A stretch of DNA of 27,205 nt, from positions 1 to 27,205 of the IMG/VR virus record IMGVR_UViG_3300035698_006116; one strand, 5' to 3'. Below the pieces are notes generated by a model. That model searched no databases. It was not told the DNA's origin and saw only the letters and a program-made list of their open reading frames with translations. A program made the position numbers and the translations under genes. Below are positions 3,061-27,205 of the stretch, piece after piece (positions within the stretch are counted from its first letter, which is position 1; each line of letters begins with the position of its first letter). This DNA is from a virus.

Positions 3061-3474
3061 ATGAAACATCTAAAATGGTTACTATTAGTTCTAATGATCT
3101 CACCGATGGTTTTCAGTCGTGCGTTTTATGTCGTGCAACTACCAGTCTATGAGTTTGAAATGCGTGTCGGTGAAACAATGGAGGCAAACGGAAGTGCGAT
3201 CAACGATCCGAATGAAGCGTTACCGTATGATTTACTCGTCGAAACTAGCGGGCCGAATAACGCAATCTGGACATACTCCGAGGATCCGAACAAAACAGTT
3301 GAATGGTTGTTTACATGGTCGCCGACCAAGTTGCAGATCGGCGAACACAATTTTCTTATCACAGCTTCAGATAGCGCCGACTCGGTGGGAAGCGATAAAG
3401 TTATCCATGTTACAGTTCATCCGAAAAAAATGGCGCCTGTAATCAACGTGGGCGGGTGCAGAATCTTGAGATGA
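3061..3474 (+). CDS. Secreted Ig/cadherin-like domain protein
   Basis: 137 residues with a strong SD (AAGGAG, 3047-3052). Residues 1-20 form a Sec signal peptide (MKHLKWLLLVLMISPMVFSR: basic start, hydrophobic core). The rest contains the pattern FTWSPTKLQIGEHNFLITAS followed by DS...VIHVTV (roughly residues 82-117), typical of putative-Ig/dystroglycan-cadherin-like domains (He_PIG type), in which W.P and G.y.f.v..sD are conserved. A short C-terminal tail ends CRILR. An exported early phage protein may act in periplasm or outside the cell, for example in adhesion or superinfection exclusion (inference). No enzyme motif is visible. Confidence 0.65.
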   Translation: MKHLKWLLLVLMISPMVFSRAFYVVQLPVYEFEMRVGETMEANGSAINDPNEALPYDLLVETSGPNNAIWTYSEDPNKTVEWLFTWSPTKLQIGEHNFLITASDSADSVGSDKVIHVTVHPKKMAPVINVGGCRILR

Positions 3475-5615: not shown

Positions 5616-5906
5616 GTGATTGTGGAACAAGATAAATTCATGAAAGCTGTCCAAGAGCTGTCAACTATGATCGCAGGCGCTGCCTACACTCAATATAATG
5701 CGTACGTTGCTGCTGGGTTTGACGATGAGCAGGCGATGCACTTGACTGCTAATTTTGTTGAAATGCTACAAGAAAAGTTCATGGATCGTAATCACAGTGT
5801 GCCTGAGATGCCTAGATGCTACACTACTGAAGCGTGTGTCTCAGAGCAGACTGCTATTTGTGAAGCATGTGAATTTAATAAAACTTGTGCTAGGGAACTG
5901 AGCTGA
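5616..5906 (+). CDS. Helical hypothetical protein with C-terminal cysteine cluster
   Basis: 96 residues; GTG at 5616 with GGAG 7 nt before it (GTG 5622 is an alternative). Residues about 8-55 are helical (AVQELSTMIAGAAYTQYNAY, then GFDDEQAMHLTANFVEML), a pattern common in small phage proteins. The C-terminal third has CYTTEACVSEQ, AICEACEF and KTCAREL, six cysteines that could form a zinc site. The stop TGA overlaps the nuclease start ATG by one base. Not recognised by name. Confidence 0.6.
   Translation: MIVEQDKFMKAVQELSTMIAGAAYTQYNAYVAAGFDDEQAMHLTANFVEMLQEKFMDRNHSVPEMPRCYTTEACVSEQTAICEACEFNKTCARELS
5794..5811 (+). repeat. 18-bp direct repeat, copy 2
   Basis: Second copy of ACAGTGTGCCTGAGATGC, 336 bp after the first. 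Confidence 0.8.
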
Positions 5907-6340
5907 TGACAAAGGCTGGAAACCGTAAGTGGGGTGAAACTAAGTTCACTAAGCATTTCTGCAAGTGCATTGAACATTGTAACGGCGTTACGTTTGCTGT
6001 TGTGGGAAGTGCTATGCAACAATCTGGCTGGCCTGATAGATACATCTGTCATAGAAGGTGGCGAGGATGGATCGAATTCAAGATGGGGTATGCTTCTTTA
6101 AGTGAGATTCAACATAAAGTCATTACTGATCTTGTAGAACGTGGTGATGTCGTCTACGTTGGCAGGATTCGCTGCAATAACTTCTTTGAACTATGTCATC
6201 CGCTCAGCGGTCAGACTCTTATGGCAACTGATCTAACCCCTTTTTGTTTAGATGAACAACGATCTGGGATGGAGTTCCTACGGATGTTGACTGTTTGTAT
6301 GGCACTTAGAACTTATTCAGGTTCACCGTTGAGTCGCTGA
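5906..6340 (+). CDS. VRR-NUC-like PD-(D/E)xK nuclease
   Basis: 144 residues. The active-site pattern of the VRR-NUC/Holliday-resolvase-like nuclease superfamily is present in order: an N-terminal helix with E11 (GETKFTKHF), GWPDR (P43-D44), IEFK (E57, K59), then SEIQ with Q69 and a helix leading to GDVVYVGR. In phages such enzymes act on branched or nicked DNA during replication, recombination or packaging. It sits at the end of the early cluster and its stop codon is the first base of the repeat region that follows, so it may act at that region (inference). The C-terminal 60 residues are less typical. Confidence 0.7.
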   Translation: MTKAGNRKWGETKFTKHFCKCIEHCNGVTFAVVGSAMQQSGWPDRYICHRRWRGWIEFKMGYASLSEIQHKVITDLVERGDVVYVGRIRCNNFFELCHPLSGQTLMATDLTPFCLDEQRSGMEFLRMLTVCMALRTYSGSPLSR

Positions 6341-6354
6341 TTGTCAGTTATCCT
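6340..6354 (+). repeat. 15-bp iteron-like repeat, copy 1 (one mismatch)
   Basis: ATTGTCAGTTATCCT; differs from copies 3 and 4 by A for G at position 7. It forms an inverted pair with copy 2. Confidence 0.75.
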
Positions 6355-6360
6355 ACAAGA

Positions 6361-6377
6361 ATGTTTTTCAAAAACAT
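6361..6377. repeat. Perfect hairpin inside the inverted repeat pair
   Basis: ATGTTTTT-c-AAAAACAT, eight base pairs around one base, nested between repeat copies 1 and 2, so the whole 6340-6393 segment can form a cruciform or an RNA stem-loop. Confidence 0.7.
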
Positions 6378-6378
6378 A

Positions 6379-6393
6379 GGGATAACCGACAAT
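6379..6393 (-). repeat. 15-bp iteron-like repeat, copy 2 (inverted)
   Basis: The reverse complement reads ATTGTCGGTTATCCC, matching copies 3 and 4 over 14 bases. Confidence 0.75.
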
Positions 6394-6620
6394 GGTAAGT
6401 CTACAAATATTCTCTGATTCTCTCAGAATTAAGTACTACATTACAGGTATACCAATATAGAAGTATATATAGAGTAGATAAGGTAATTTGTTTTTATGTA
6501 TAAATATATATATATACTGTACTTACACTATATAGAATTGTTGTTTAGACGGTGACAATAGAGTGACATTGATGAACGTAGAAAAAACTGACTTTTTGAT
6601 CGGTGCCCTGTGGACTTGCG

Positions 6621-6635
6621 ATTGTCGGTTATCCT
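6621..6635 (+). repeat. 15-bp iteron-like repeat, copy 3
   Basis: ATTGTCGGTTATCCT, identical to copy 4. Confidence 0.8.
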
Positions 6636-6657
6636 TGTGCTTTCACTGTATTGTGGC

Positions 6658-6672
6658 ATTGTCGGTTATCCT
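6658..6672 (+). repeat. 15-bp iteron-like repeat, copy 4
   Basis: ATTGTCGGTTATCCT, 37 bp downstream of copy 3 and 18 bp before the next start codon, where a bound protein could also affect expression. Confidence 0.8.
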
Positions 6673-6689
6673 ATGAAAGAGCTTTTACA

Positions 6690-7034
6690 ATGATCAACGA
6701 TCCATCTATATTGAAACATTTACCCGAAGATATTCAAAAGACTAATCAAGATGAGAATGAATACCATACCATGAAAAAGGCGTGGGATGAGAGTTGGGCG
6801 GAGTATCAGCAGTTCAATCGGAAGAAAACGCGAGAAGCATTATTAAATGCGTTAGTTCCTGAGCGGTGCTGCCCGGTCTGTGAGCGCGTCTTTCTACGGT
6901 CGAGGTCCTGGGTGTTCATGACTCAGCGCCTCTTCTTCATCTTGAGAAACACTGAAAGAAACCCAGTTCAACGTGACATATTCATAGAAAAGAAGATCGT
7001 ATGTCGCAGTTGCTACTATAAATATTTTGTTTAA
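6690..7034 (+). CDS. Zinc-ribbon hypothetical protein
   Basis: 114 residues from ATG 6690; a longer ORF starts at 6603, but its first part is encoded by the 15-bp repeats and reads poorly. The N-terminal half is helical and charged (MKKAWDESWAEYQQFNRKKTRE). The C-terminal half has CCPVCERV and, about 45 residues later, CRSCYYKYF, a four-cysteine zinc-ribbon arrangement with a basic insert. Being the first gene after the repeat region, it is a candidate for a protein acting there, but nothing in the sequence proves it. SD is weak (GAAAGAG). Confidence 0.55.
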   Translation: MINDPSILKHLPEDIQKTNQDENEYHTMKKAWDESWAEYQQFNRKKTREALLNALVPERCCPVCERVFLRSRSWVFMTQRLFFILRNTERNPVQRDIFIEKKIVCRSCYYKYFV

Positions 7035-7057
7035 GGACTTGTAGATCATGAAAAACG

Positions 7058-7153
7058 GTGAAGCAAAAAATTGATCAAACGTTTACGATTCCGAAAGGTT
7101 ACTTTGTAACGCAAGTTAATCTAGATGCATTAAATCAGGACCATAGAATATGA
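7058..7153 (+). CDS. 31-34 residue protein, start unclear (possible frameshift)
   Basis: GTG at 7058 begins MKQKIDQTFTIPKGYFVTQV and ends at TGA 7151-7153, overlapping the next ATG as ATGA, which argues it is translated. There is no SD for the GTG. An ATG at 7048 with AAGGA 10 nt upstream is one base out of frame: removing one A from AAAAAC (7051-7056) would give MKTVKQKIDQTF. A homopolymer length error or a true mutation could explain this. Function unknown. Confidence 0.45.
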   Translation: MKQKIDQTFTIPKGYFVTQVNLDALNQDHRI

Positions 7154-7359
7154 GTGACATTTTTAAACTGTACGAGAAACGTTACACGTTAGATTCAGCT
7201 GCTTTGATCTCAGCACCTCTTGACGCAGAACTCACGTTAAGTGAATTTGCTTATCAAGCAGATTGGTCCACGAGTTACCAATGGAAACTTGAGAATGATC
7301 GGGTCAAAACTATCTCAGAAGAAACGAAAAAAGTTATTGACTCCGTACTGCAACTGTGA
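7150..7359 (+). CDS. Cro/CI-like helix-turn-helix protein
   Basis: 69 residues. The stretch LTLSEFAYQADWSTSYQWKL (about 29-48) followed by ENDRVKTISEETKKVIDSVL matches the HTH layout of XRE/Cro proteins: helix 2 (SEFAYQA), turn, recognition helix (STSYQWKLEN) and a closing helix after an IS.ET motif. It would bind DNA, perhaps the 15-bp repeats or the dyad before the terminase operon (inference). Its own 3' end carries the -35 of a strong promoter. Start ATG overlaps the upstream gene. Alternative: a divergent HTH-like fold without DNA binding. Confidence 0.5.
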   Translation: MSDIFKLYEKRYTLDSAALISAPLDAELTLSEFAYQADWSTSYQWKLENDRVKTISEETKKVIDSVLQL

Positions 7360-7365
7360 TATAAT
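7337..7365 (+). promoter_or_regulatory. Sigma70 promoter, predicted leaderless start at 7372
   Basis: TTGACT (7337-7342), 17-bp spacer, TATAAT (7360-7365). The usual start point, seven bases after the -10, falls on the A of the ATG at 7372. The -35 lies within the end of the HTH gene. Confidence 0.65.
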
Positions 7366-7371
7366 AGTACA

Positions 7372-7629
7372 ATGGACAAGGTACAGACAGCAATAGACGA
7401 AATTCGAGAAACTATGACTAAAGCTCGTAGTTCTACGTCGTCTTTTGTTCTATGTATTCTATGCGGAAACGACGAATACGTTGGATATCGACCGTTTGCT
7501 GAAACTACAGATTTAGAAGCCAATAATGTCGTATATAGTCTATGTGACCCACATCATCCTATAGAGCACTTACAACAGTCTGTTTTGCTTTCATTAATAA
7601 GTAGAATTAAAGTATATGGAGAAGTCTAA
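7372..7629 (+). CDS. Small zinc-binding-like hypothetical protein, probably leaderless mRNA
   Basis: 85 residues: MDKVQTAIDEIRETMTKARS helix, then CILCGNDEYVGYRP and, further on, LCDPHHPIEHL. The CxxC plus C..HH residues could bind zinc. No SD precedes the ATG; instead a consensus promoter is placed to start transcription on the ATG. The stop TAA overlaps the next ATG. Unknown function. It may be expressed independently of the upstream block, and possibly regulated by the HTH protein encoded just before it (inference). Confidence 0.6.
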   Translation: MDKVQTAIDEIRETMTKARSSTSSFVLCILCGNDEYVGYRPFAETTDLEANNVVYSLCDPHHPIEHLQQSVLLSLISRIKVYGEV

Positions 7630-7901
7630 TGGCAGAGTTTAAAGCAGCATATCGGCACGGTGACAAAGTTAGAGACGTTATCAGCAAGTTTGAAGGTATC
7701 GTTATCGCGATCACCTTTCACGCGACTGGATGTGTGCACTATGGACTATGTTCAACGAAGCTAGGTGAGTACGGAAAAATCACTGATTGGGAATGGTTCG
7801 ACGAGACTCGACTTACGATGATCAGTCCAAGTGCTGTTACTATTACTTTTGGTAAAAAGGAGAAGACCGGTGGCCCTAGTCAAGAGTGTCCAATCTGTTG
7901 A
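7629..7901 (+). CDS. Small phage protein of the GDKVRD...GIV type
   Basis: 90 residues: YRHGDKVRDVISKFEGIVIA, then TGCVHYGLCS and EWFDETRLTMI. This layout (G-D-x-V-x-D, F-x-G-I-V, T-G-C, W-F-D-E-x-R-L) is a recurrent small-protein family in phage and prophage genomes, presumably an SH3-like beta barrel, with no assigned role that I know. Ends QECPIC. TAATG overlap with the gene before it. Confidence 0.65.
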   Translation: MAEFKAAYRHGDKVRDVISKFEGIVIAITFHATGCVHYGLCSTKLGEYGKITDWEWFDETRLTMISPSAVTITFGKKEKTGGPSQECPIC

Positions 7902-7902
7902 T

Positions 7903-8076
7903 GTGATACGTCACAAGACGACACGAGTCGTGCATACTTATCAATCGTCAGAACGATGTCAGGGACGATCAGCTATATTTACTGTTATTGATGATCCCGA
8001 GCCATCATTTGAGACACGGGTAAAACTGCATGCGAACATGAATAAAAGGAAGTACGTTGAATCGAGGTGGATATAA
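7903..8076 (+). CDS. 57-residue basic hypothetical protein (GTG start)
   Basis: GTG at 7903, two bases after the preceding stop, gives MIRHKTTRVVHTYQSSERCQ and continues to TAA 8074-8076, which overlaps the next ATG. Positively charged with a predicted strand-rich middle (AIFTVIDDPEPSFETRVKL). No good SD, so coupled translation is likely. The open frame extends further upstream (7831), but that part overlaps the previous gene. Not recognised. Confidence 0.5.
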   Translation: MIRHKTTRVVHTYQSSERCQGRSAIFTVIDDPEPSFETRVKLHANMNKRKYVESRWI

Positions 8077-8345
8077 TGACAGGACTGTTTGCGTTATCAC
8101 CAGAAGCGCTTTTGCAAGAGCCAACAGTCAAGCAAGCTTGCAAAGAAATGGATATCGAAGTAAGTACGATATGCATTTATCATCTCGCGTTTATTATGCG
8201 AACTAAGATGATAGAATTCGGTTACCAAAGATACTGGTTCGGACATATGATGGATCAAGCTTTACCGATCTACATTAACGACTTCAGCCCGGTATGCTGG
8301 GTCGCAGCCGGAGTGACTACATATCTTGAAAGGTGCGTGTTATAA
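8076..8345 (+). CDS. Helical hypothetical protein
   Basis: 89 residues from ATG 8076 (TAATG overlap; GAGG-type SD close upstream; a GTG at 8067 is less likely). MTGLFALSPEALLQEPTVKQ, then several amphipathic helices with YHLAFIMRTKMIEFGYQRYW. No cysteine cluster or catalytic motif. It forms a three-gene coupled run with its neighbours. Unknown. Confidence 0.55.
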   Translation: MTGLFALSPEALLQEPTVKQACKEMDIEVSTICIYHLAFIMRTKMIEFGYQRYWFGHMMDQALPIYINDFSPVCWVAAGVTTYLERCVL

Positions 8346-8578
8346 TGTCTTGTCCAACGTGTGACCACACAATGCAAAACGTAGCACCCGAATTGTTCTG
8401 GTGCCTACGATGCGGCACACTACGAGACCGCACGCATGAGAACGATAGTACATCAATGCTTGTAAACCGTGTCGCGAATCTATTCGCGGTAATCAAAGAT
8501 GAATGTCATAAGACGATTCCACAGGTTGTAGACTACGCTCGTGTCATCGGGATATTCGAATCGGTTAGAAAGGAGTAA
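8345..8578 (+). CDS. Small zinc-ribbon protein
   Basis: 77 residues from ATG 8345 (TAATG overlap). CPTCDHTM near the start and CLRCGTLR about 17 residues later form a rubredoxin-like zinc knuckle pair; the rest is a helix. Similar zinc-ribbon heads are found on many tiny phage proteins. No SD beyond coding sequence of the previous gene. Confidence 0.6.
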   Translation: MSCPTCDHTMQNVAPELFWCLRCGTLRDRTHENDSTSMLVNRVANLFAVIKDECHKTIPQVVDYARVIGIFESVRKE

Positions 8579-8599
8579 AGTTAAGAAGTACGTAGTTAG

Positions 8600-8629
8600 T
8601 TGTCAAGTTGTTTAAATGGAACGTTTTAT
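8600..8629 (+). promoter_or_regulatory. Possible promoter before the outer-membrane barrel gene
   Basis: TTGTCA (8600-8605), 18-bp spacer, TTTTAT (8624-8629). Five of six and four of six consensus matches. Weak alone, but it sits in a 64-bp gap before a gene that also has a hairpin after it. Confidence 0.3.
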
Positions 8630-8642
8630 TAAGGAGAACGAA

Positions 8643-9221
8643 ATGAAGTTCACGTGGTTGTTGTCGGTTTTGTCTATCTTGATTCTTTGTACGCCGTGCA
8701 TGGCTGTTAACTTTTTGGTCGGTGGAAAGTACTTGGACACAGACCGTACGTCACCGTTCGATTACTCTGCAGGAGGCTACGTTCAACTTCGAGAGATTAT
8801 TAAAGATGACATTTCTCTCGGCATGAAATTGGGCTTTGATCGTACCAGTGTCAGCCCAGAGTCCAGTAAAGGACGACGATCCACAGAGAAGATATCTGGG
8901 AATGTGAAGACGTTTAATCTTGGTCTTTCTGCTATCTGGGAAATCAGATCTAATTGGGAACTCGAAGCAGGTGGAGCTTACAATTGGATTAACGACTCTG
9001 ATGTTCAAGAAGTTCAAACACAGTCCTGTCGACGTAGAACGAAGACCCGCACGTTGAACCATGAGTACAATGATTACATTACGGGATTCATCCAAACGAA
9101 TCTGATTAAACCGTTGAATGATGACACCGCAGTTCTGTTCGGTCTTGGTTATCAAATCCAAGAAGAGTTCCGAGACATGAACGGTGCTTACTGCACTCTT
9201 GCTGTCATGTTTAAACACTAA
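8643..9221 (+). CDS. Predicted outer-membrane beta-barrel protein
   Basis: 192 residues; ATG 8643 with a strong SD (TAAGGAGAACGAA). A Sec signal peptide covers about residues 1-21 (LLSVLSILILCTPCMA). The mature part alternates polar and hydrophobic residues in strands of 8-12 ending in aromatic girdles (YSAGGYVQLREI, ISLGMKLGF, FNLGLSAIW, WELEAGGAYNW, DYITGFIQTNLI, AVLFGLGYQI, YCTLAVMFKH), as in eight-stranded barrels of the OmpW/OmpX kind. Phage-borne barrels usually alter the surface of infected cells, blocking other phages or aiding the host. It stands apart from its neighbours, with a possible promoter before and a hairpin after. Confidence 0.6.
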   Translation: MKFTWLLSVLSILILCTPCMAVNFLVGGKYLDTDRTSPFDYSAGGYVQLREIIKDDISLGMKLGFDRTSVSPESSKGRRSTEKISGNVKTFNLGLSAIWEIRSNWELEAGGAYNWINDSDVQEVQTQSCRRRTKTRTLNHEYNDYITGFIQTNLIKPLNDDTAVLFGLGYQIQEEFRDMNGAYCTLAVMFKH

Positions 9222-9230
9222 CGGTTCACA

Positions 9231-9264
9231 ACGCTCCTAGCCCAGACCGTTGGACTAGGAGCGT
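9231..9264 (+). terminator. Perfect 10-bp hairpin after the barrel gene
   Basis: ACGCTCCTAG (9231-9240) and CTAGGAGCGT (9255-9264) pair exactly; CCA/TGG inside can extend the stem. Only a short pyrimidine stretch (cttggttt) follows, so termination may be partial. Confidence 0.55.
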
Positions 9265-9282
9265 CTTGGTTTAAGGCAAACA

Positions 9283-9444
9283 ATGGGACATCAAAGAAGA
9301 CTGAAGAAACTGTTGGCTAAAGCTGTTAACGGCCCGACGAAAGCCGTTCGAATCATAACAGATAAAAAAGGTAAAAAGGTAGGCATTGTGAAGTATAGTC
9401 TATTACGTTTTGCCAAGGTCCTTAACAAGAATAGAAAGGAGTAA
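9283..9444 (+). CDS. 53-residue highly basic protein
   Basis: ATG at 9283 with AAGG upstream. MGHQRRLKKLLAKAVNGPTK, then RIITDKKGKKVGIVKYSLLRF and a Lys/Arg/Asn tail. The strong positive charge suggests nucleic-acid binding; no named fold. Its last codons (AAG GAG TAA) supply the SD for the next gene. Confidence 0.55.
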   Translation: MGHQRRLKKLLAKAVNGPTKAVRIITDKKGKKVGIVKYSLLRFAKVLNKNRKE

Positions 9445-9447
9445 TGA

Positions 9448-9708
9448 ATGTCACGCGAAGAAGAAAAGCTACAGTTAGAACAATGCCTTGACGCTTTCGC
9501 TGAGACACTGCGAGCCCGAGTCATGGAACGATTTGAGCAACAATGGGTAGGATGGGACGATCCACGAATCGCAACGTCTGCGTTCGAAGGCAACGCCCAA
9601 CGATGCTTAATTGAAAACGACTTTGTAGATGCTGCAGGTTACGTGATGTTCCTATGGTATCGTGAACAAGCTGGCATGAACAGTACCGACTTAGCTGGAG
9701 GAGGTTAG
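9448..9708 (+). CDS. Small helical phage protein (GWDDP...DAAGYVMFLW type)
   Basis: 86 residues. QWVGWDDPRI followed by a helix and NDFVDAAGYVMFLWYREQAG matches a common phage pattern in which GWD and, later, D..DvAN..M.L are conserved; this is often found near nucleotide-metabolism or MazG-like genes, although its biochemical role is unproven. SD AAGGAG immediately upstream. The stop is directly followed by the radical SAM start. Confidence 0.6.
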   Translation: MSREEEKLQLEQCLDAFAETLRARVMERFEQQWVGWDDPRIATSAFEGNAQRCLIENDFVDAAGYVMFLWYREQAGMNSTDLAGGG

Positions 9709-10608
9709 ATGGTTTCATGGATGAAGATGGGTACGTTACCGCCGCTGTCTGTAGATGAGGAGTACCCGCCACCGACTCGAATGTCGATAGAGACGTCGAG
9801 TAAGTGTAATCGCAGATGCTCGTTCTGCCCAACAAGCACTGGGATCCGAGATCACGAGCAACGACTCATGACTGACAGTCTCTTTAAGCATATCGCTAGT
9901 CAAATACCTAAGGAAACAAAGATCATCCAACTGTTCCGCTTGAACGAACCGTTACTCGATCCGAAGCTTTGCAAACGAGCCGCATATCTTCGTTCTATTG
10001 GCTATAAAGGGACGATCTACGTTGCGACGAATGGTGACACGTTAACATCGCGCGATGATCTGGATTTCGCTATTGAAAAGATATGGGCTCTCAAGCGCGC
10101 TGGCGTCAACGTTCTTAGTGTGGACATTTACGATGACGAAACAGCTGAGAAACGTGTTAACCGAATGAACGAGCTTACTAAACTTTTGCTTAGGTTCAGC
10201 AGCCATTTCCGCTGGACAGACAGTCGGTACCAGAGCCACGCTCGTAAGTTCATGCATCTTAATGTCACTGACATGAGGCCCAACGCTAAACGAGACAAGA
10301 CTTCTCAATGGCACAACTTCGGTCTTGATATGAATGTGAAGGGAATTGAGGCTCGATGCGCTCGGCCTATGAGACATCAAGTTATCCTCTATAACGGTGA
10401 GGTCGAGTTCTGCTGTGCGACTAATCCCGGTGATAAGCGCTTAGAGCGTTGCGGCGATGCTAACCATACATCATTGAAAGAACTATGGAACTGTGAATTA
10501 ATGCATCGCTACCGCTTGAAGCTACAGACTGGTGACAGATCGTTACTGGGATGTGACATATGTGATCTGAAAACAGCGTACGCCCACATAACGAGGAGAG
10601 TGAAATGA
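9709..10608 (+). CDS. Radical SAM enzyme with SPASM-like C-terminal cluster
   Basis: 299 residues. CNRRCSFC at 33-40 is the CxxxCxxC motif that holds the radical SAM [4Fe-4S] cluster. The usual GGEP appears as RLNEPLLDP (78-86), and IYVATNGD (103-110) is the next conserved strand. C217, C235/C236, C248, C282 and C285 form a SPASM-like auxiliary iron-sulfur region (ILYNGEVEFCC is typical). Such enzymes use S-adenosylmethionine radicals to modify peptides, proteins, nucleotides or sugars. SD AGGAGG lies at the end of the preceding gene; ATGA overlap with the next gene. The substrate cannot be told; peptide or DNA-base modification are both possible. Confidence 0.8.
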   Translation: MVSWMKMGTLPPLSVDEEYPPPTRMSIETSSKCNRRCSFCPTSTGIRDHEQRLMTDSLFKHIASQIPKETKIIQLFRLNEPLLDPKLCKRAAYLRSIGYKGTIYVATNGDTLTSRDDLDFAIEKIWALKRAGVNVLSVDIYDDETAEKRVNRMNELTKLLLRFSSHFRWTDSRYQSHARKFMHLNVTDMRPNAKRDKTSQWHNFGLDMNVKGIEARCARPMRHQVILYNGEVEFCCATNPGDKRLERCGDANHTSLKELWNCELMHRYRLKLQTGDRSLLGCDICDLKTAYAHITRRVK

Positions 10609-19448: not shown

Positions 19449-20501
19449 ATGGACTATATTCTGAATGGAAACCCGAATGGCCAGGTTGCTGAAAAGCTCA
19501 TGGCTGTTAACTTTGATGTTGGAGCTCTACGCCCCTGGGCTGGCAAAGATGGTCGCACGTACATCACTGTCAACGATGGCGGGGCCTTGAAGAACATTCC
19601 TATTGCGAACACTACCACAACGCTTCGCCAGTACGATTGGAAGCAAATCGATGCAGCTATTGTCAAGGAAGCCAAACCTCGTCTGAAAGCTGTTGCAGAT
19701 CTTCGTGGTCGTGGCCTGACGTACAACATTCCTAACGGGATGTCACGCACTGTCCTTGAGACAGAGACTATGTCTGGTGCAAACGATGCACAAATCTCGA
19801 TGGACGGTGTTCACCGCGGTGCAAACGATCGCGTGCTCTTCGAAGCGAGTTCTCTGCCCTTGCCGATCATTCATTACGACTTCAGCTTCTCTGCTCGTCA
19901 GATTCAAGCTTCTCGTAATGGTGGATCTCCGCTTGACACTTCAATGGCTGAAGAAGCTGGCCGCAAGGTTGCTGAAGCTGCCGAAAAGCTTTTGCTTGGC
20001 AAGATGTCGGATTACACATTCGGCGGTGGTACGATTCAGGGCTATACTAACTGGTCTAGCGTTCTGACTCAAACGATCACCTCGCCTGCCACTTCAGGTT
20101 GGACCGGCCAGACGCTGCTCAGCGAGCTTCTTGCTGCTCGTCAATCTGCTTATGACGTCAATCACTTTGGTCCGTTCATGCTCTACACCGGCCCGAGTTG
20201 GGATCAGTACCTTGATCGTGACTGGAGTACCGCTAAGGGCGACAACACTGTCCGCGAACGTCTAGCTAAGCTCGAAGGCATCAGCGAAATCAAGACTCTT
20301 GATTATCTGACTGGTTACGAGATGGTTCTGGTTCAGATGACCAGCAACGTTGTTCGTTCTGTTGAAGGTTTGGACATCACCACGGTGCAGTGGGAATCCA
20401 ATGGTGGCTTCACCTTGAATTACAAGGTTATGGCGATCATTGTTCCTCAGCTTCGCACTGATCAATCCAGCCAAACCGGGATTGTTTACTGCTCTGTGTA
20501 A
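19449..20501 (+). CDS. Major capsid protein (HK97 fold)
   Basis: 350 residues, SD AAAGGA. Building block of the head. The order DUF2213 protease-scaffold, decoration, this gene is typical of the capsid module. Inside, GAND...LFEASSLPLPIIHYDFS, FSARQIQASRNGGSPLDTSM and AEEAGRKVAEAAEKLLLGKM are the recognisable stretch shared with encapsulin-like capsid proteins (the P-domain with R-x3-A-S-R and the long helix). The C-terminal half has WDQYLDRDWS and MVLVQMTSNVVRSVEGLDIT, as in this family. No delta-domain scaffold is seen within it, consistent with the separate scaffold upstream. Confidence 0.85.
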   Translation: MDYILNGNPNGQVAEKLMAVNFDVGALRPWAGKDGRTYITVNDGGALKNIPIANTTTTLRQYDWKQIDAAIVKEAKPRLKAVADLRGRGLTYNIPNGMSRTVLETETMSGANDAQISMDGVHRGANDRVLFEASSLPLPIIHYDFSFSARQIQASRNGGSPLDTSMAEEAGRKVAEAAEKLLLGKMSDYTFGGGTIQGYTNWSSVLTQTITSPATSGWTGQTLLSELLAARQSAYDVNHFGPFMLYTGPSWDQYLDRDWSTAKGDNTVRERLAKLEGISEIKTLDYLTGYEMVLVQMTSNVVRSVEGLDITTVQWESNGGFTLNYKVMAIIVPQLRTDQSSQTGIVYCSV

Positions 20502-20563: not shown

Positions 20564-20911
20564 ATGTTATTCCGTGTTATAAAAGGTGCACATTCTCAAG
20601 ACGGTCAATTGTATGAAGCTGGTACTGATCACGAAGTGGTTGATACGAGCATTGATTTGATCAAAGCTTTTAATAATAACGGTAAGTTCGAACGGGTGTC
20701 CGTTCCTCTCGATGAATTAAATGTACAAGCTGCCGTCGTGTTTGAAAACGACGTGACTGAACAGTTTGATGTAGCGGCTCAGGTGAATTGCAAAGTATAC
20801 CGCGAAAGTGGCCAATTCTTTATTGTTAACAACGACACTAACCAGCCGATCCACAAAACTAAACTCACAAGTATGGAAACCGTACGGCAGCTTCTTATAG
20901 GTTTAAAGTAA
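20564..20911 (+). CDS. Small head-neck region hypothetical protein
   Basis: 115 residues, SD AAAGGAA. MLFRVIKGAHSQDGQLYEAG and DLIKAFNNNGKFERV are typical of a short phage protein often found right after the major capsid gene. A C-terminal beta-rich domain (VYRESGQFFIVNNDTNQPIH) follows. The role is unknown; head completion is likely from location. TAATG overlap with the next gene. Confidence 0.6.
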   Translation: MLFRVIKGAHSQDGQLYEAGTDHEVVDTSIDLIKAFNNNGKFERVSVPLDELNVQAAVVFENDVTEQFDVAAQVNCKVYRESGQFFIVNNDTNQPIHKTKLTSMETVRQLLIGLK

Positions 20912-21546
20912 TGAAACCCGCAGCGTGGTTACAATCGAATCCGTTTGAAGATGGAGAAGTTTTCATTATCGGCGGCGGTTCATCTTTGAAAGATTTTAAC
21001 TGGGATCTTTTATCGACGCGCCATACGATCGGTTGTAACGATGCTTATAAGCATGGTGTTGACATTTGTAAAGTATGTGTTTTTGGTGATCTCGCATGGT
21101 GGAGAAAACATCACGAGAGACTCAAAAGTTACCGCGGCGTTGTAGTTACTAACACTTGCGGATTAGCAACAACGGCCAATAGACCAAGCTGGGTGCATTA
21201 CTTTAATCGCCAACCCTTCGGGTTACATTTAAATTCGTTAGGATGGAACGGACACACCGGTTCTGCAGCTTTAAATCTAGCTATTATCTTAGGCGCAACT
21301 AAGATACGTCTTCTAGGTTTCGATATGGGCATAAGAAAAGGTAAAACGAACTGGCACAGTGAGATTCTCAATCCCGGGGCCGTTTTACCTTCTTCTTATG
21401 CTATGTTTTTACAGGATTGGAAGAGCGTCACGAGTGATTTGATTTGCAAATTCAGTAACGTTGAAGTTATTAATATCAACGATAACGACTCTCTTCCTAA
21501 TATAAAGCACGTTGAACCTGAAACTTACTGGAAAGGCCTACAATGA
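20911..21546 (+). CDS. DUF115/sialyltransferase-fold-like protein
   Basis: 211 residues. EVFIIGGGSSLKDFNWDLLS at the N-terminus, NDAYKHGVDICKVCVFGDLA, a central NGHTGSAALNLAIILGATKI and LLGFDMGIRKG form the Rossmann-like pattern of DUF115/MptE-like and CST-I-type (GT42) enzymes, where GgGpSL binds the nucleotide. Such genes recur in phage structural modules. It may attach a sugar to virion or host surface, but the acceptor is unknown. Ends HVEPETYWKGLQ. Its location between capsid and connector genes is unusual and suggests use during late infection (inference). Confidence 0.6.
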   Translation: MKPAAWLQSNPFEDGEVFIIGGGSSLKDFNWDLLSTRHTIGCNDAYKHGVDICKVCVFGDLAWWRKHHERLKSYRGVVVTNTCGLATTANRPSWVHYFNRQPFGLHLNSLGWNGHTGSAALNLAIILGATKIRLLGFDMGIRKGKTNWHSEILNPGAVLPSSYAMFLQDWKSVTSDLICKFSNVEVININDNDSLPNIKHVEPETYWKGLQ

Positions 21547-22031
21547 AGAAGTTACTAGTATGGACAGTACTAGCAGTTATCGGATGCTTTCACCTTGTAG
21601 GATGTACTGAGGAACAAGCATCAAAAGCAGCTGATCCTAATAGTACATTTAATCAAACAGGCGATCAAGTCGCTGATAAAGCAGATGAAGTTGCAATCAT
21701 TCTTGGACTGCTTGGGCCATGGGGCGAAACTGCTGAAGGGCTTGTGACACTTGCTGGTTTCAGTTGGGGCGCTTGGCAAAAATCGAGACGCAAACTTGAA
21801 GGTATTGAAGCTGTTGGCACGTTGGGTAAAGTGACGAAAGTCACATCTGCCACAGTTATTGCTATCGAGGATCTTAAGGACGTTAAGATCAACAGTAATG
21901 GCGTTGAAACAACACTCGGTGAGCTTGTTAAAGACCGGATTAAAGCCAGACTCGAAGATAAAGATATCTATGAGCAAGGCAAAGCACTCATCACAGCTAT
22001 TAAAAATGGTCTTGATGATGTAAGGAGCTAA
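21543..22031 (+). CDS. Predicted lipoprotein
   Basis: 162 residues, ATGA overlap. MKKLLVWTVLAVIGCFHLVGC carries a signal peptide II lipobox LVGC with the modified Cys at 21, followed by a hydrophilic TEEQASKAADP linker. Then VAIILGLLGPWGETAEGLVTLAGFS is hydrophobic enough for a membrane helix, and a charged helical domain follows. Phage lipoproteins can act in lysis (outer spanin) or in blocking reinfection; the helix after the lipobox and the head-gene context make exact assignment impossible. Confidence 0.6.
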   Translation: MKKLLVWTVLAVIGCFHLVGCTEEQASKAADPNSTFNQTGDQVADKADEVAIILGLLGPWGETAEGLVTLAGFSWGAWQKSRRKLEGIEAVGTLGKVTKVTSATVIAIEDLKDVKINSNGVETTLGELVKDRIKARLEDKDIYEQGKALITAIKNGLDDVRS

Positions 22032-22755: not shown

Positions 22756-23123
22756 TGGGTATCATTAGTCGAATGAGAAAGCAGACTGCTGTCTATTTTC
22801 CACTTGCTGGAGACGAATCGGGTCAGCAGGATTATGATGCGCACGGCCAACCTCAGTACGGAACGCCGTATGAGATCAAATGTAGATGGGAAGATGTTTC
22901 GGATCAAGTTATAGACGCTAAGGGCAACACCATTATGACAAAAAGTACGGTGTATGTGGATCAAGTTGTTAGAGCCGGTGGCATGCTGTATCTCGGTAAC
23001 TTAGTAGATGTTGGTCTAGATCTTGACGATCCAATAGGTAGTGACGGCGCTTGGGAAATCATTCGATTTGATACTCTTCCGAACCTTAAAAATACAGAAA
23101 ACTTATTAACAGCTTACGTGTAA
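22755..23123 (+). CDS. Head closure/neck-like protein
   Basis: 122 residues. RMRKQTAVYFPLAGDESGQQ, IKCRWEDVSDQVIDAKGNTI and STVYVDQVVRAGGMLYLGNL fit the phage head-closure/adaptor group that caps the portal-connector and links to the tail. The ordering with HK97-gp10-like completion next is typical. TAATG overlap at both ends. Confidence 0.65.
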   Translation: MGIISRMRKQTAVYFPLAGDESGQQDYDAHGQPQYGTPYEIKCRWEDVSDQVIDAKGNTIMTKSTVYVDQVVRAGGMLYLGNLVDVGLDLDDPIGSDGAWEIIRFDTLPNLKNTENLLTAYV

Positions 23124-23485
23124 TGGCCGGAATGATCAAAGTTACTGGAGTACAATCTATGATCAGTAAGCTTCATGCTGCTGACAAAACCCTAGGAGCG
23201 CGTCATGAGATCAACATGAAGAAAGCTGGACTTTATGTTCAACGTGAAAGTCAAAAGATTGTCCCAGTAGACCTTGGTAATTTGAAAAATACCGCTTTTA
23301 CTCGTAACGTCGGTGGGAAGGGTTGGCTCGCAAACATCATTGTAGGGTACACCGCTGTATACGCAATCTTTGTTCATGAGCGATCAGACTTAACGCATAA
23401 AGAAGGTAAGACTTATAAGTTTTTAGAAAAAATTATAAGAGGTCATCGCAAAACAATTTCACGAATCATTGCTGGAGTAAAGTAG
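23123..23485 (+). CDS. HK97 gp10-like tail completion protein
   Basis: 120 residues. ALY-type helix then GLYVQRESQKIVPVDLGNLK, ANIIVGYTAVYAIFVHERSD and a basic C-terminal helix are the gp10 family pattern (VPvdtG.Lk, VgY...YA.yvHE). The family members finish the tail end that joins the head. It overlaps the preceding gene. A long-tailed phage is therefore most probable, although no tape measure is in the window. Confidence 0.75.
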   Translation: MAGMIKVTGVQSMISKLHAADKTLGARHEINMKKAGLYVQRESQKIVPVDLGNLKNTAFTRNVGGKGWLANIIVGYTAVYAIFVHERSDLTHKEGKTYKFLEKIIRGHRKTISRIIAGVK

Positions 23486-23486
23486 A

Positions 23487-23711
23487 ATGACTGATTTAAT
23501 AGATGCTCAAGGTAAACCTAGTAGCATGCGAAAGAATTGTAGAGCGGCACTGTTCTTTTCCTTTGTGATGGCACTGGTGACGATGCTTGTTGCGTATCAA
23601 TCAGGACTTGAAGCGGCTTACACGGGGGTTTATTTTACTACTTTCTTTGGTCTGTGTTGCTTTTGCCCTCAGGCCATCCAGAAATTCGCTGAGAGGATGC
23701 CCAGCAAATGA
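23487..23711 (+). CDS. Two-helix small membrane protein
   Basis: 74 residues, ATG 23487 with GGAG upstream. Charged N-terminus (MTDLIDAQGKPSSMRKNCRA), first membrane helix LFFSFVMALVTMLVAYQSGL, second YTGVYFTTFFGLCCFC, then QAIQKFAERMPSK. This pattern (S-x-x-R then two helices ending near QK.AE) occurs in small phage membrane proteins of unknown function; holin is possible but no lysis gene neighbours it. Overlaps the beta-helix gene by 4 nt. Confidence 0.5.
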   Translation: MTDLIDAQGKPSSMRKNCRAALFFSFVMALVTMLVAYQSGLEAAYTGVYFTTFFGLCCFCPQAIQKFAERMPSK

Positions 23712-25591
23712 AACAGCTTACAATCATCTTAATCTTAGCCCTATCGTCCACAGTGATGGGGGCGACGTATTACGTTGCGACCAACGGGAACAACACGACT
23801 GGTGATGGATCTATTGGGACGCCATGGCTTACGATTGACTATGGGATATCCCAAGTCTATGCAGGTGATACACTTTATGTTCGCGGAGGGCGATACTATG
23901 AAGAAGTTACTCTTGTCAGAAGTGGAACGGAAGACAGCCCCATTACCATTAAGGCTTATCCAGGCGAAACCCCAATCATAGACGGCACTGAGCCAATCAC
24001 AGGCTGGACCCAATGCGTCTCTGATGAGACCCTTTTGACCATAGACGGGGTGACCAATCCAGACTATGCAAACATCTACAAGGCGAGAATAGATTCCGAT
24101 CTACTTCCAAGTACAGAGTCCACGTTTAAACTATTTGAAGACGGGGAACATCTCCGCATGGCCAGTTGGCCGGACCAGGAGCTAGGATATATTTATGATG
24201 TAAATTTATTTGTCCCTCTAGAAGCAGAGGCTGCGGGCGTAAAGTCTTATGTTTTGGATTCCGACCTTACTGAAGATGACGATTACTGGAATGGTGCATT
24301 CGTCAGAGTATGGCTGCACCTGGCAAACAATAGTATCAATACTCGGACTGTAACAGATTTCAATGATGGGTATTTGGTTCTCAGTTCTGACCTGTCCGAT
24401 GACATTTCAGTAACCGGAGGGACTAACCCAGATGCTTATGGCATTTATAACCATCCCCATGTACTTGATTCTGAGGGGGAGTTTTATTTCGTAGAAGATC
24501 CAAGCAACTCGGATTATACCTATGTTTTTGTATGGCCAGAAAACGTTGATAATTTAGCAGATAACATCGCAGTCACTGCAAAAGAGATCGGTATATATGG
24601 CTATGCTAAGTCTTATGTTACTATTGATGGATTTACAATTAGTAAATACACAGATCATGGTATCCAACTCAGAGCTGATGTATTAGATTCGAATATCAAC
24701 AATACTGGAACCAGAATACTGAATTGCTCACTCAGTGATTGTGCAAATTACACTATTGATTTAAAACGTGCGATTACATGTGAAGTGAACAACTGTTCTA
24801 TCAATCGCGGGGGCGATTCTGGCATACTTTTATCTATGTACAATACAGGTTCCGTTATTACCAACTGTACGATTACAAATTGCGCTGGCACTTCTATTGC
24901 CTTAAAGGATTCAGAGAACGTAATTGTGTCTCGTAACACAGTAGGAGGAGTTACCGGCACTCACGGGAATGGTTTCTCTTTTTACGACGACTGCGATAGT
25001 GTGTTGGTAGCCCACAATAAGGTCTTCCATGACAATACTTGTATCACAATGAATACTCCTAGCAATATATATTTTTTCGGTAACTTGCTTGTAACGGCTG
25101 ACGAAAAAGCCATAACCAATTGGTCTGCGATGGAAGATGATATTCATTTGATTCATAATACACTTGTTGAGGGAGTTGGTAGAGGGATTTCGTTAAAGCT
25201 TAACTATGAAGGGTATAATGCATATCAGGTAAATAATATCATTGAGGGACAGGTGTCCGACATACCCGCTCTGCTTGACAGGACTTATAACGTTTACACA
25301 GCAAAATCATACGAGCAGGGTGCCGGTTGGGAGTTGAGTACTGGGGAAGTCTATCAGCCAGATTTCGACGCGGTGTTTGCTGATTATGACAACGAAGACT
25401 ATTCACTCTGTGTCGGTTCTGCGGCCAAGCATGCAGGCACACCCTCTATAACGCTTCCAACAGCGAAGTTTCCCACTTATGATTTCAGTGTAGACCTTAA
25501 CAGCAATCCTTGGGCGGCAACACCATCGATTGGTGCCTATGAACTAACCGGAGCAGGGCCTAAATTTGGCCTAATACTGAGGACGCCATAA
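23708..25591 (+). CDS. Secreted right-handed beta-helix protein (pectate-lyase-like)
   Basis: 627 residues. Signal peptide at about 1-18 (MKQLTIILILALSSTVMG), then ATYYVATNGNNTTGDGSIGT and DTLYVRGGRYYEEVTLVRSG, typical of a DUF1565/parallel beta-helix start. Repeats of N/C-rich rungs (ILNCSLSDCANYTIDL, VITNCTITNCAGTSIALK, VIVSRNTVGGV) span about 335-500, and the end TPSIGAYEL is typical of such proteins. Beta-helix enzymes cleave or bind polysaccharide, so a depolymerase-type tail spike fits by fold, but the Sec signal is unusual for a virion protein. Codon usage differs (more GGG) from upstream. Confidence 0.7.
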   Translation: MKQLTIILILALSSTVMGATYYVATNGNNTTGDGSIGTPWLTIDYGISQVYAGDTLYVRGGRYYEEVTLVRSGTEDSPITIKAYPGETPIIDGTEPITGWTQCVSDETLLTIDGVTNPDYANIYKARIDSDLLPSTESTFKLFEDGEHLRMASWPDQELGYIYDVNLFVPLEAEAAGVKSYVLDSDLTEDDDYWNGAFVRVWLHLANNSINTRTVTDFNDGYLVLSSDLSDDISVTGGTNPDAYGIYNHPHVLDSEGEFYFVEDPSNSDYTYVFVWPENVDNLADNIAVTAKEIGIYGYAKSYVTIDGFTISKYTDHGIQLRADVLDSNINNTGTRILNCSLSDCANYTIDLKRAITCEVNNCSINRGGDSGILLSMYNTGSVITNCTITNCAGTSIALKDSENVIVSRNTVGGVTGTHGNGFSFYDDCDSVLVAHNKVFHDNTCITMNTPSNIYFFGNLLVTADEKAITNWSAMEDDIHLIHNTLVEGVGRGISLKLNYEGYNAYQVNNIIEGQVSDIPALLDRTYNVYTAKSYEQGAGWELSTGEVYQPDFDAVFADYDNEDYSLCVGSAAKHAGTPSITLPTAKFPTYDFSVDLNSNPWAATPSIGAYELTGAGPKFGLILRTP

Positions 25592-26382
25592 TGAAAAAGA
25601 CATTTATAACACTACTTGTATTGTTGCTACAGATTTCAGCAATTGCAGACCTGACTGATGGCTTAGTTTCTTATTGGGCTTTTGACGAAGCCATTGGTGA
25701 TGCTATTGATTCTAACAGTGTCACAGGCAATGATGGGACGGTTACTGGAGCCACGCCAGGATCTACCGGCATATTAGGTGACTGTTATCTATTTGATGAA
25801 ATAAATGACCGCATTGTTATACCGGACAGTGCAACGCTAACTTTGACAGGGGATTGGACGATTTCGCTATGGGTAAAGCTCGCCGACAACTCTGGATCCG
25901 ATTACCAGTATATTATATCTAATGGTGCAGCGGGTGATTACCCCAGCCTAAATTGGTATATTCATGAGGAAGACACCGCTACGGATCCCAATCAGTTGCA
26001 TTTTAACTACGGTGACAATGGCTCTAATGCCGCAAACCTAACGTCAACGGGAGACCCTGGTGCTAGCACAGCATGGCAGCATTTCATGATTGTCAAGATT
26101 GACAGCACGAATTCATTTACCCAATACATAAATAATTCATCCGACCCCTACGACTACGACACTTCAGGAGATATGGATGGCGGGGATTGGTATATTGGGG
26201 CTCGATCTGACCTAGACGCCGACAGATTTTATGGTGGGCTGATCGACGAAGTTGCGATTTACAACAGAGCAATCACTTCTGGCGAAAGAAGTTCACTTTA
26301 TAATTCAGGCGATGCGTTTAATCCATATGCATCATCTTCCGTAGTCCCAAAAATCCAATCACAACAGCGCAGGAGACGATAA
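25591..26382 (+). CDS. Secreted LamG/concanavalin-like lectin domain protein
   Basis: 263 residues, TAATG overlap. Signal peptide MKKTFITLLVLLLQISAIAD. Residues 22-235 show LamG_3/ConA features: LVSYWAFDEAIGDAIDSNSV, FDEINDRIVIPDSATLTL, DWTISLWVKLADNSG, GGLIDEVAIYNRAITSGE. This module binds sugars or is part of adhesins. The C-terminus is a basic PKIQSQQRRRR tail. In tail context it could bind host glycans; the signal peptide would place it in the periplasm or outside before virion assembly, which is odd. Confidence 0.7.
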   Translation: MKKTFITLLVLLLQISAIADLTDGLVSYWAFDEAIGDAIDSNSVTGNDGTVTGATPGSTGILGDCYLFDEINDRIVIPDSATLTLTGDWTISLWVKLADNSGSDYQYIISNGAAGDYPSLNWYIHEEDTATDPNQLHFNYGDNGSNAANLTSTGDPGASTAWQHFMIVKIDSTNSFTQYINNSSDPYDYDTSGDMDGGDWYIGARSDLDADRFYGGLIDEVAIYNRAITSGERSSLYNSGDAFNPYASSSVVPKIQSQQRRRR

Positions 26383-26383
26383 C

Positions 26384-27205
26384 ATGCGAAATTTACTAAT
26401 TCTTTTGGCCATCTTGGCTTGTGTGGCTCCTGTGTGGGGCATTGAACTAAGAGAAGACACTGCTGCTCAGATCGTACCTATCGGTCCATTTGTCGATCCT
26501 AGCACAGGTGCATTTGAAACGGCTCTCGTGTTCCGTGCAGCAGATATAGAGATCAGCAAGAACGGTGCGGCTTTTGGGGCAAAGAGCGATGCTACAGCTC
26601 CTTCTCATCTTGGGGAAGGGATGTATGCGGTCACCCTAAATGCAACGGATACATCAACGGCAGGGTTTATCACTATCAACGTTATTGACCCGAATATTGC
26701 GTCTGGTGCTTCTGATCCCAATGCTTTATTCACTCAGCCTTATGTTAATATTTTGACGAACAACTGGTATGACTCCAAATACGGAACAGATGAGCTTGAT
26801 ACAAGCGTAGTTCAGTGGCTTGGAACTGCTGCGGCCACACCAACTACCGCTGGCGTCCCTGAAGTAGACTCAACTTATTGGCATGGCGAACTTATACCAG
26901 ATCCAAACATAACTGGCGTGCCGGAAGTTGATGTCACTTATGTTGGTGGGGTAATTTATTCAACGGCGCTCATCACCTCTGCATCTAACCAAACAGATAC
27001 AATAGCTGCTTTGGGAACGTATACAGCTGTAACTACTGCTGATCTGTCTGCTCATGATGCCAATATGGTGTCGGCAGTCGCTGGTGCTGCTGGTGATCCT
27101 TGGACGGCCACACTACCCGGAAGCTATACAGGGAATCAGGCAGGCAAGATTCTAGCTGATATGAACAGTGTGGTATTACCAGCGATACAGACTGATTTAG
27201 ATAAC
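26384..27205 (+). CDS. Tail/baseplate-like protein with signal peptide (3'-truncated by window)
   Basis: 274 residues, open at the window end. ATG 26384 follows AGGAG and a stop 2 nt before. Signal peptide MRNLLILLAILACVAPVWG. Then IVPIGPFVDPSTGAFETALV, ISKNGAAFGAKSDATAPSHL, GMYAVTLNATDTSTAGFITI match the recurring phage tail-associated N-terminal domain in which GPF.D..dG, LsKnGa and G.Y...L.atDt..G are conserved. Later repeats (VGGVIYSTALI, PWTATLPGSYTGNQAGKILA) recall the collagen-free trimeric fibre segments with lPgsY..g.AG. With its signal peptide it forms a set with the two genes upstream. Confidence 0.7.
   Translation, partial: MRNLLILLAILACVAPVWGIELREDTAAQIVPIGPFVDPSTGAFETALVFRAADIEISKNGAAFGAKSDATAPSHLGEGMYAVTLNATDTSTAGFITINVIDPNIASGASDPNALFTQPYVNILTNNWYDSKYGTDELDTSVVQWLGTAAATPTTAGVPEVDSTYWHGELIPDPNITGVPEVDVTYVGGVIYSTALITSASNQTDTIAALGTYTAVTTADLSAHDANMVSAVAGAAGDPWTATLPGSYTGNQAGKILADMNSVVLPAIQTDLDN

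Follow-up and report, generated by a model that had tools for sequence, protein, structure and literature searches.

Assembly of tailed phages is thought to take place in the cytoplasm. A run of phage genes that each begin with a Sec signal peptide (SP) therefore raises the question of whether their products are exported from the infected cell and, if so, where they act. A preliminary description placed such a run, in the tail region, at 23708–27205 of the IMG/VR record IMGVR_UViG_3300035698_006116, a tailed-phage fragment that was analysed whole (27,205 bases; hereafter, the window). Three consecutive open reading frames, P1, P2, and P3, are indeed present there on the + strand.

The recognizable gene order of the window is terminase, portal, Mu F-like head, DUF2213 (protease-like), decoration, capsid, head-tail connectors, and Neck1, followed by a 74-aa membrane protein and then by P1, P2, and P3. 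The major capsid protein (19449–20501, + strand; DUF6260/HK97-like, PF19774, E = 3e-22) was the query used for gathering and placing relatives. Also on the + strand are a predicted lipoprotein (21543–22031), which belongs to the same late block as P1–P3, the tail completion/Neck1 protein (23123–23485; phrog_5, E = 5.8e-8), which anchors the accessory slot, and the 74-aa membrane protein (23487–23711), which lies 5' of P1, overlaps it, and gave no family match above cutoff. The slot of P1–P3 is an accessory one between the neck and tail-terminator genes, outside the classic tail-tip region.

P1 (23708–25591, 627 aa), P2 (25591–26382, 263 aa), and P3 (26384–27205) all lie on the + strand; P3 has no stop before the contig end, and the protein is thus incomplete. 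The three genes are coupled, as had been proposed: Shine-Dalgarno-like sites precede P1 (GAGAGGA), P2 (TGAGGA), and P3 (CAGGAG), P1 overlaps the upstream stop, P2 overlaps P1 by 1 nt, and a 1-nt gap separates P3 from P2.

Several other genes of the window were noted. A Sialyltransferase/MptE-like gene (20911–21546) adjoins the capsid gene and has 60 homologous genes across the capsid relatives, many of them beside variable small SP or lipoprotein genes. The early region encodes a small SP-bearing protein (3061–3474) that may contain a putative-Ig domain (He_PIG, E = 0.03), and a Radical SAM/SPASM protein (9709–10608) shows weak matches to families of the metalloenzyme-maturase type. A predicted outer-membrane β-barrel protein with an SP, of the Lom-like kind, is encoded at 8643–9221 (Autotransporter β-domain, E = 2.4e-5, slightly below the cutoff). 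The predicted lipoprotein and β-barrel genes of the phage itself suggest a diderm host. A host genome scan returned six contigs from MAGs of six different groups, several of them short and possibly misbinned, and we therefore claim no host.

The β-helix and LamG identities given in the preliminary description were confirmed. P1, a right-handed β-helix protein, matched Beta_helix (PF13229) with E = 2.6e-15 and 56.8 bits against a curated cutoff of 25.9, and NosD with E = 2e-9. Its N-terminal domain resembles residues 3–85 of the GH120 xylosidase 3vst, as well as the N-terminus of the pectate lyase PelN, the latter match being partial and far under the curated cutoff. The structure model of P1 was poor (pLDDT 37) and was left unused. 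P2, a LamG/concanavalin-like lectin, matched Laminin_G_3 (PF13385) with E = 1.5e-18 and 67.8 bits against a curated cutoff of 27.6.

For P3, no Pfam match was obtained. Residues about 20–125 were modelled as an Ig-like β-sandwich (pLDDT mostly 76–90), the remainder of the model being unreliable. Searched against BFVD, the domain model gave a weak BppU match (E = 5e-3) and a best named tail protein at E = 8e-5, and against the PDB it gave generic Ig matches (best E = 6e-3). The tail/baseplate assignment made earlier for P3 has its basis in phage homologues and in weak structural similarity of the model rather than in a curated family, and "tail-type" is used here in that sense.

SPs were called by a home-made heuristic (not SignalP), which was tried on known proteins: it accepted OmpA, LamB, Bla, MalE, PelB, and Lpp (scores 6.4–6.9), missed PhoA, and rejected GroEL, LacZ, and a holin. 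P1, P2, and P3 scored 5.9–7.3, values that fall within or close to those of the accepted controls, in agreement with the earlier view that their SPs are convincing. The predicted SP of P1 (23708–23764, + strand) is MKQLTIILILALSSTVMG, followed by A, with cleavage predicted after residue 18 or 19; that of P2 (25591–25647, + strand) is MKKTFITLLVLLLQISAIA, with cleavage between AIA and D; and that of P3 (26384–26440, + strand) is MRNLLILLAILACVAPVWG, with cleavage between VWG and I. By the heuristic, all three have the sequence features of Sec/SPI substrates, namely a basic n-region, a hydrophobic core, small residues at -3/-1, and a correct translation start. P1 and P2 have no lipobox; P3 has as its alternative a weak one (ILAC, residues 10–13, Cys13), which was not called, and P3 of a related phage, L060, has none. 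No additional hydrophobic span was seen in mature P1, P2, or P3. The DNA similarity between the three SPs is 35–37%, a value so low that copies of one cassette look unlikely.

Could these SPs be chance calls or misannotated starts? In residue shuffles, an SP was called in 61 of 8800 cases, and this low false-call base rate (0.7%) is all that speaks for such an origin. Against it, SPs were called in three of three genes both in the window and in L060, and Shine-Dalgarno sites are present. Internal alternative starts of P1–P3 were rejected, since the mature N-termini have no Shine-Dalgarno-bearing start in the window. We consider chance or misannotation very improbable.

We compared the SP frequency in 80 IMG/VR loci gathered by capsid similarity, in all of which genes and SPs were called. 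No SP was found in the conserved structural-block genes (0/526; protease-like, decoration, capsid, connectors, neck, tail terminator, tail tube, and others), whereas of the accessory genes that lie from the connector to the tail tube and encode ≥200 aa, 8 of 45 carried one (7 of 44 before the addition of the L060 LamG gene, which the gene caller had skipped); these counts are approximate, as gene and start choices affect them. Within the clade, the SPs clustered by phage: with the window left out, 6 same-locus pairs were seen (permutation p = 0.003). Nearly all related phage proteins lack SPs, and export is as unexpected for proteins of this kind as the preliminary description had stated.

The same three-gene order, for which a search had been proposed, was found in L060, whose capsid is 57% identical to that of the window. 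L060 encodes a β-helix protein (914 aa), a LamG protein (from 9739), and a P3 protein (366 aa) in the window order, with an SP on each. Identities to the window proteins are 28–32% for the β-helix and 42% for the P3 domain; the LamG gene (9739–10572) is homologous to P2 with 31% identity over 186 aa (E = 6e-17). The L060 block lies on the opposite side of a connector gene relative to its position in the window, which indicates that the block moves as a unit.

Other relatives carry partial or differing versions. In L098, the trio consists of two proteins of β-helix type and a P3-related protein of 961 aa, each with an SP; the first has two possible starts, and an SP is obtained with either. Region 436–846 of the P3-related protein is 45% identical to an SP-less protein of L078. 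The slot of L058 contains an SP protein of 1121 aa that has a GDSL esterase domain, and an SP-less P3 relative comes next; in L072, an 835-aa SP protein adjoins the connector gene. SP-bearing phages are dispersed over the capsid tree, in which at least five label changes are forced by well-supported branches, although the bootstrap had not settled. The scatter reflects either several origins of the SPs or exchange of the block between phages. Another virus, L016, has two consecutive long SP-bearing genes in its structural region (5794–9986), the second with LamG domains. At 8767–10042 of L094, a 239-aa gene that looks like a homing-endonuclease-like insertion separates a connector gene fragment, which precedes it, from a full connector gene.

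Absence of SPs in relatives had been named in advance as counting against export. Most relatives do lack SPs, but those that carry the block keep them, and where the SP is lacking the protein begins close to the mature N-terminus. These results indicate that the SPs are derived additions rather than false calls.

The addition is clearest for P3. Its N-terminal domain has homologues in 41 further IMG/VR loci and in one cultured phage, and the homologues of L032, L078, and a Microcystis phage start within two residues of the predicted cleavage point in the window and L060. A scan with the P3-domain alignment gave 44 loci. The 43 examined, which include duplicate or nearly identical contigs, comprise L060 itself, one locus truncated by its contig end, and 41 whose start lies 1–6 residues from the reference position. 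In many, an in-frame stop lies a few codons upstream, so that no SP is possible there. The extra ~18–19 N-terminal residues occur within the family only in the window and L060. As judged from these sequences, the SP of P3 has thus been joined precisely to the front of a phage protein. It is unlikely to have been brought in with a secreted bacterial gene, since the P3 relatives found are all viral but for one phage-like genomic fragment. P3 gave no match on plasmids or in 395 genomes of one phylum (a search run without a positive control), and in 14 genomes of another phylum one showed a short phage-like match.

For P1 and P2, the SP could have been acquired along with a secreted bacterial gene. 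Cellular homologues of P1 occur on plasmids, with homology from residues 18–22, past the SP of P1. The SP-less P1 homologues of L078, L029, and L179 begin at the domain, which in L078 and L029 corresponds to the predicted cleavage point of P1. Single-protein scans of IMG/VR with P1 and with P3 gave no match, because this search finds close relatives only.

An unrelated podovirus-like contig, L145, was met through P3. Its gene at 7032–9923 encodes a core podovirus tail protein (phrog_376, E = 6e-151) with an SP-like N-terminal stretch of ~24 residues; the homologues of BcepC6B and a Pelagibacter phage start without such an extension, and a viral scan for tail proteins of this type gave one distant relative, L187, which is SP-less. 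The β-helix gene of L145 is also SP-bearing, and other SP genes lie near 7032–9923. This one contig supports recurrent SP-like additions to phage structural genes. As its tail protein must be built into the virion, an SP-like N-terminus is insufficient for a claim of export, and on this example it need not by itself mean an exported, non-virion protein.

L145 accordingly bears on the explanation that P1–P3 are virion proteins assembled in the cytoplasm, with an SP-like N-terminus that goes unused as a poor substrate, an internally trimmed segment, or a hydrophobic docking segment. Consistent with this explanation, the slot and the domains are common to SP-less relatives in the virion block. 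However, each of the three SP regions (n, h, and c) is as expected for Sec SPI and matches E. coli SPs, a docking segment needs no mimicry of a cleavage site, and three different genes per phage carry an SP in several phages, with significant clustering. An unused N-terminus is thus a rather unlikely explanation, if the strongest of the alternatives. As the trio recurs with its SPs in the distantly related L060, it is probably a real adaptation and not an accident.

We propose that P1–P3 form an accessory block whose glycan-binding proteins, phage-derived and of secreted type, would now be under Sec export and act outside the cytoplasm, a reading based on sequence to which we give about even odds (roughly 0.5). 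During infection, P1–P3 would pass the inner membrane via Sec, the SPs would then be cleaved, and soluble mature proteins would work in the periplasm, or in the medium after secretion or lysis. There, the β-helix, the lectin, and the Ig-like partner would bind or process surface or extracellular polysaccharide, and the Ig/BppU-like domain of P3 may dock the set or hold it together. Sec export is favoured by the SPs of P1–P3 together with their ribosome sites, the three-SP order in L060, the L098 trio, the SP-bearing esterase of L058, the clustering of SPs by phage, their scatter on the capsid tree, and the start of SP-less P3 homologues at the mature N-terminus. Glycan-directed action is favoured by contents of surface-glycan type (β-helix, LamG, and esterase), and soluble mature forms by the lack of a membrane anchor in mature P1–P3. 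Conversely, SP-less relatives occupy the same slot, indicating that the module can function without export, which counts against Sec export.

Where exported proteins would end up allows two further explanations. P1–P3 might join virions once exported, either in the periplasm or following lysis, so that the particle would carry adhesins matured outside the cell. BppU/tail-type domains elsewhere hold fibres on baseplates, and the modelled Ig-like domain of P3, with its weak BppU and tail matches (E = 5e-3 to 8e-5), would suit such a role, as would the position of SP-less relatives in the virion block. However, there is no cultured member, and the virion content of the P3 family is itself deduced from gene position and homologues; we regard attachment after export as improbable. 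Alternatively, P1–P3 might be displayed on or near the surface of the infected or lysogenic cell and, like Ltp or Lom, block other phages or divert them. Exported phage proteins of such a sort exist (PMC3952083; PMC12309495), and the window also encodes the SP-bearing β-barrel protein at 8643–9221. P1–P3 nevertheless have neither a membrane anchor nor a convincing lipobox, and lie in the late structural block rather than in an immunity region; no lysogeny genes were seen among the open reading frames examined in this record, which is a fragment. Surface display is still less probable than attachment after export.

More broadly, and as a tentative extension of Sec export of P1–P3, several tailed-phage lineages may have independently placed under Sec export an adhesion/fibre set that formerly took the cytoplasmic virion route, the set maturing outside the cytoplasm and serving as free secreted factors or joining virions after lysis. 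If the recurrent, exact addition of SPs is true, some adhesins of phages would have their site of action or maturation outside the cytoplasm, which would bear on superinfection, on the ways in which phages deal with biofilm and capsule, and on telling "host" from "phage" genes in metagenomes. In a survey of variable phage proteins, the SPs of bacterial counterparts were absent from the phage proteins, and this absence was used to argue that adhesins came from phages (PMC6199706). Among the open-licence papers searched, none describes an SP-bearing adhesin set of a tailed phage, a scope that limits any claim of novelty. The domains and the export signal are already known; their combination is unusual and recurrent.

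The comparison with known systems delineates this combination. P3-type phage proteins (XAN61292.1 of Microcystis phage Mvi-Yong1342-1 and those of L117–L182) share the phage-encoded N-terminal Ig-like domain but begin at it, SP-less, whereas P3 of the window carries an SP. Phage lectin and β-helix proteins with like domains occur in structural regions (the LamG protein of Psychrobacter phage Y8A and the β-helix protein of the Manatee Spring podovirus, L029); the latter and most LamG proteins in viral loci are SP-less, in contrast to P1 and P2. Secreted bacterial β-helix enzymes (the pectate lyase PelN and the GH120 xylosidase) have the N-terminal β-helix cap seen in P1, but the homology spans part of P1 only, and an enzymatic role of P1 is putative. 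Finally, the Ltp superinfection-exclusion lipoproteins (PMC3952083) and lambda Lom (PMC12309495) are likewise phage-encoded and exported by the host. These are lipid-anchored or β-barrel proteins, whereas P1 (β-helix), P2 (LamG), and P3 (Ig-like domain) are not β-barrels of the Lom type and form a coupled set of tail-type adhesins.
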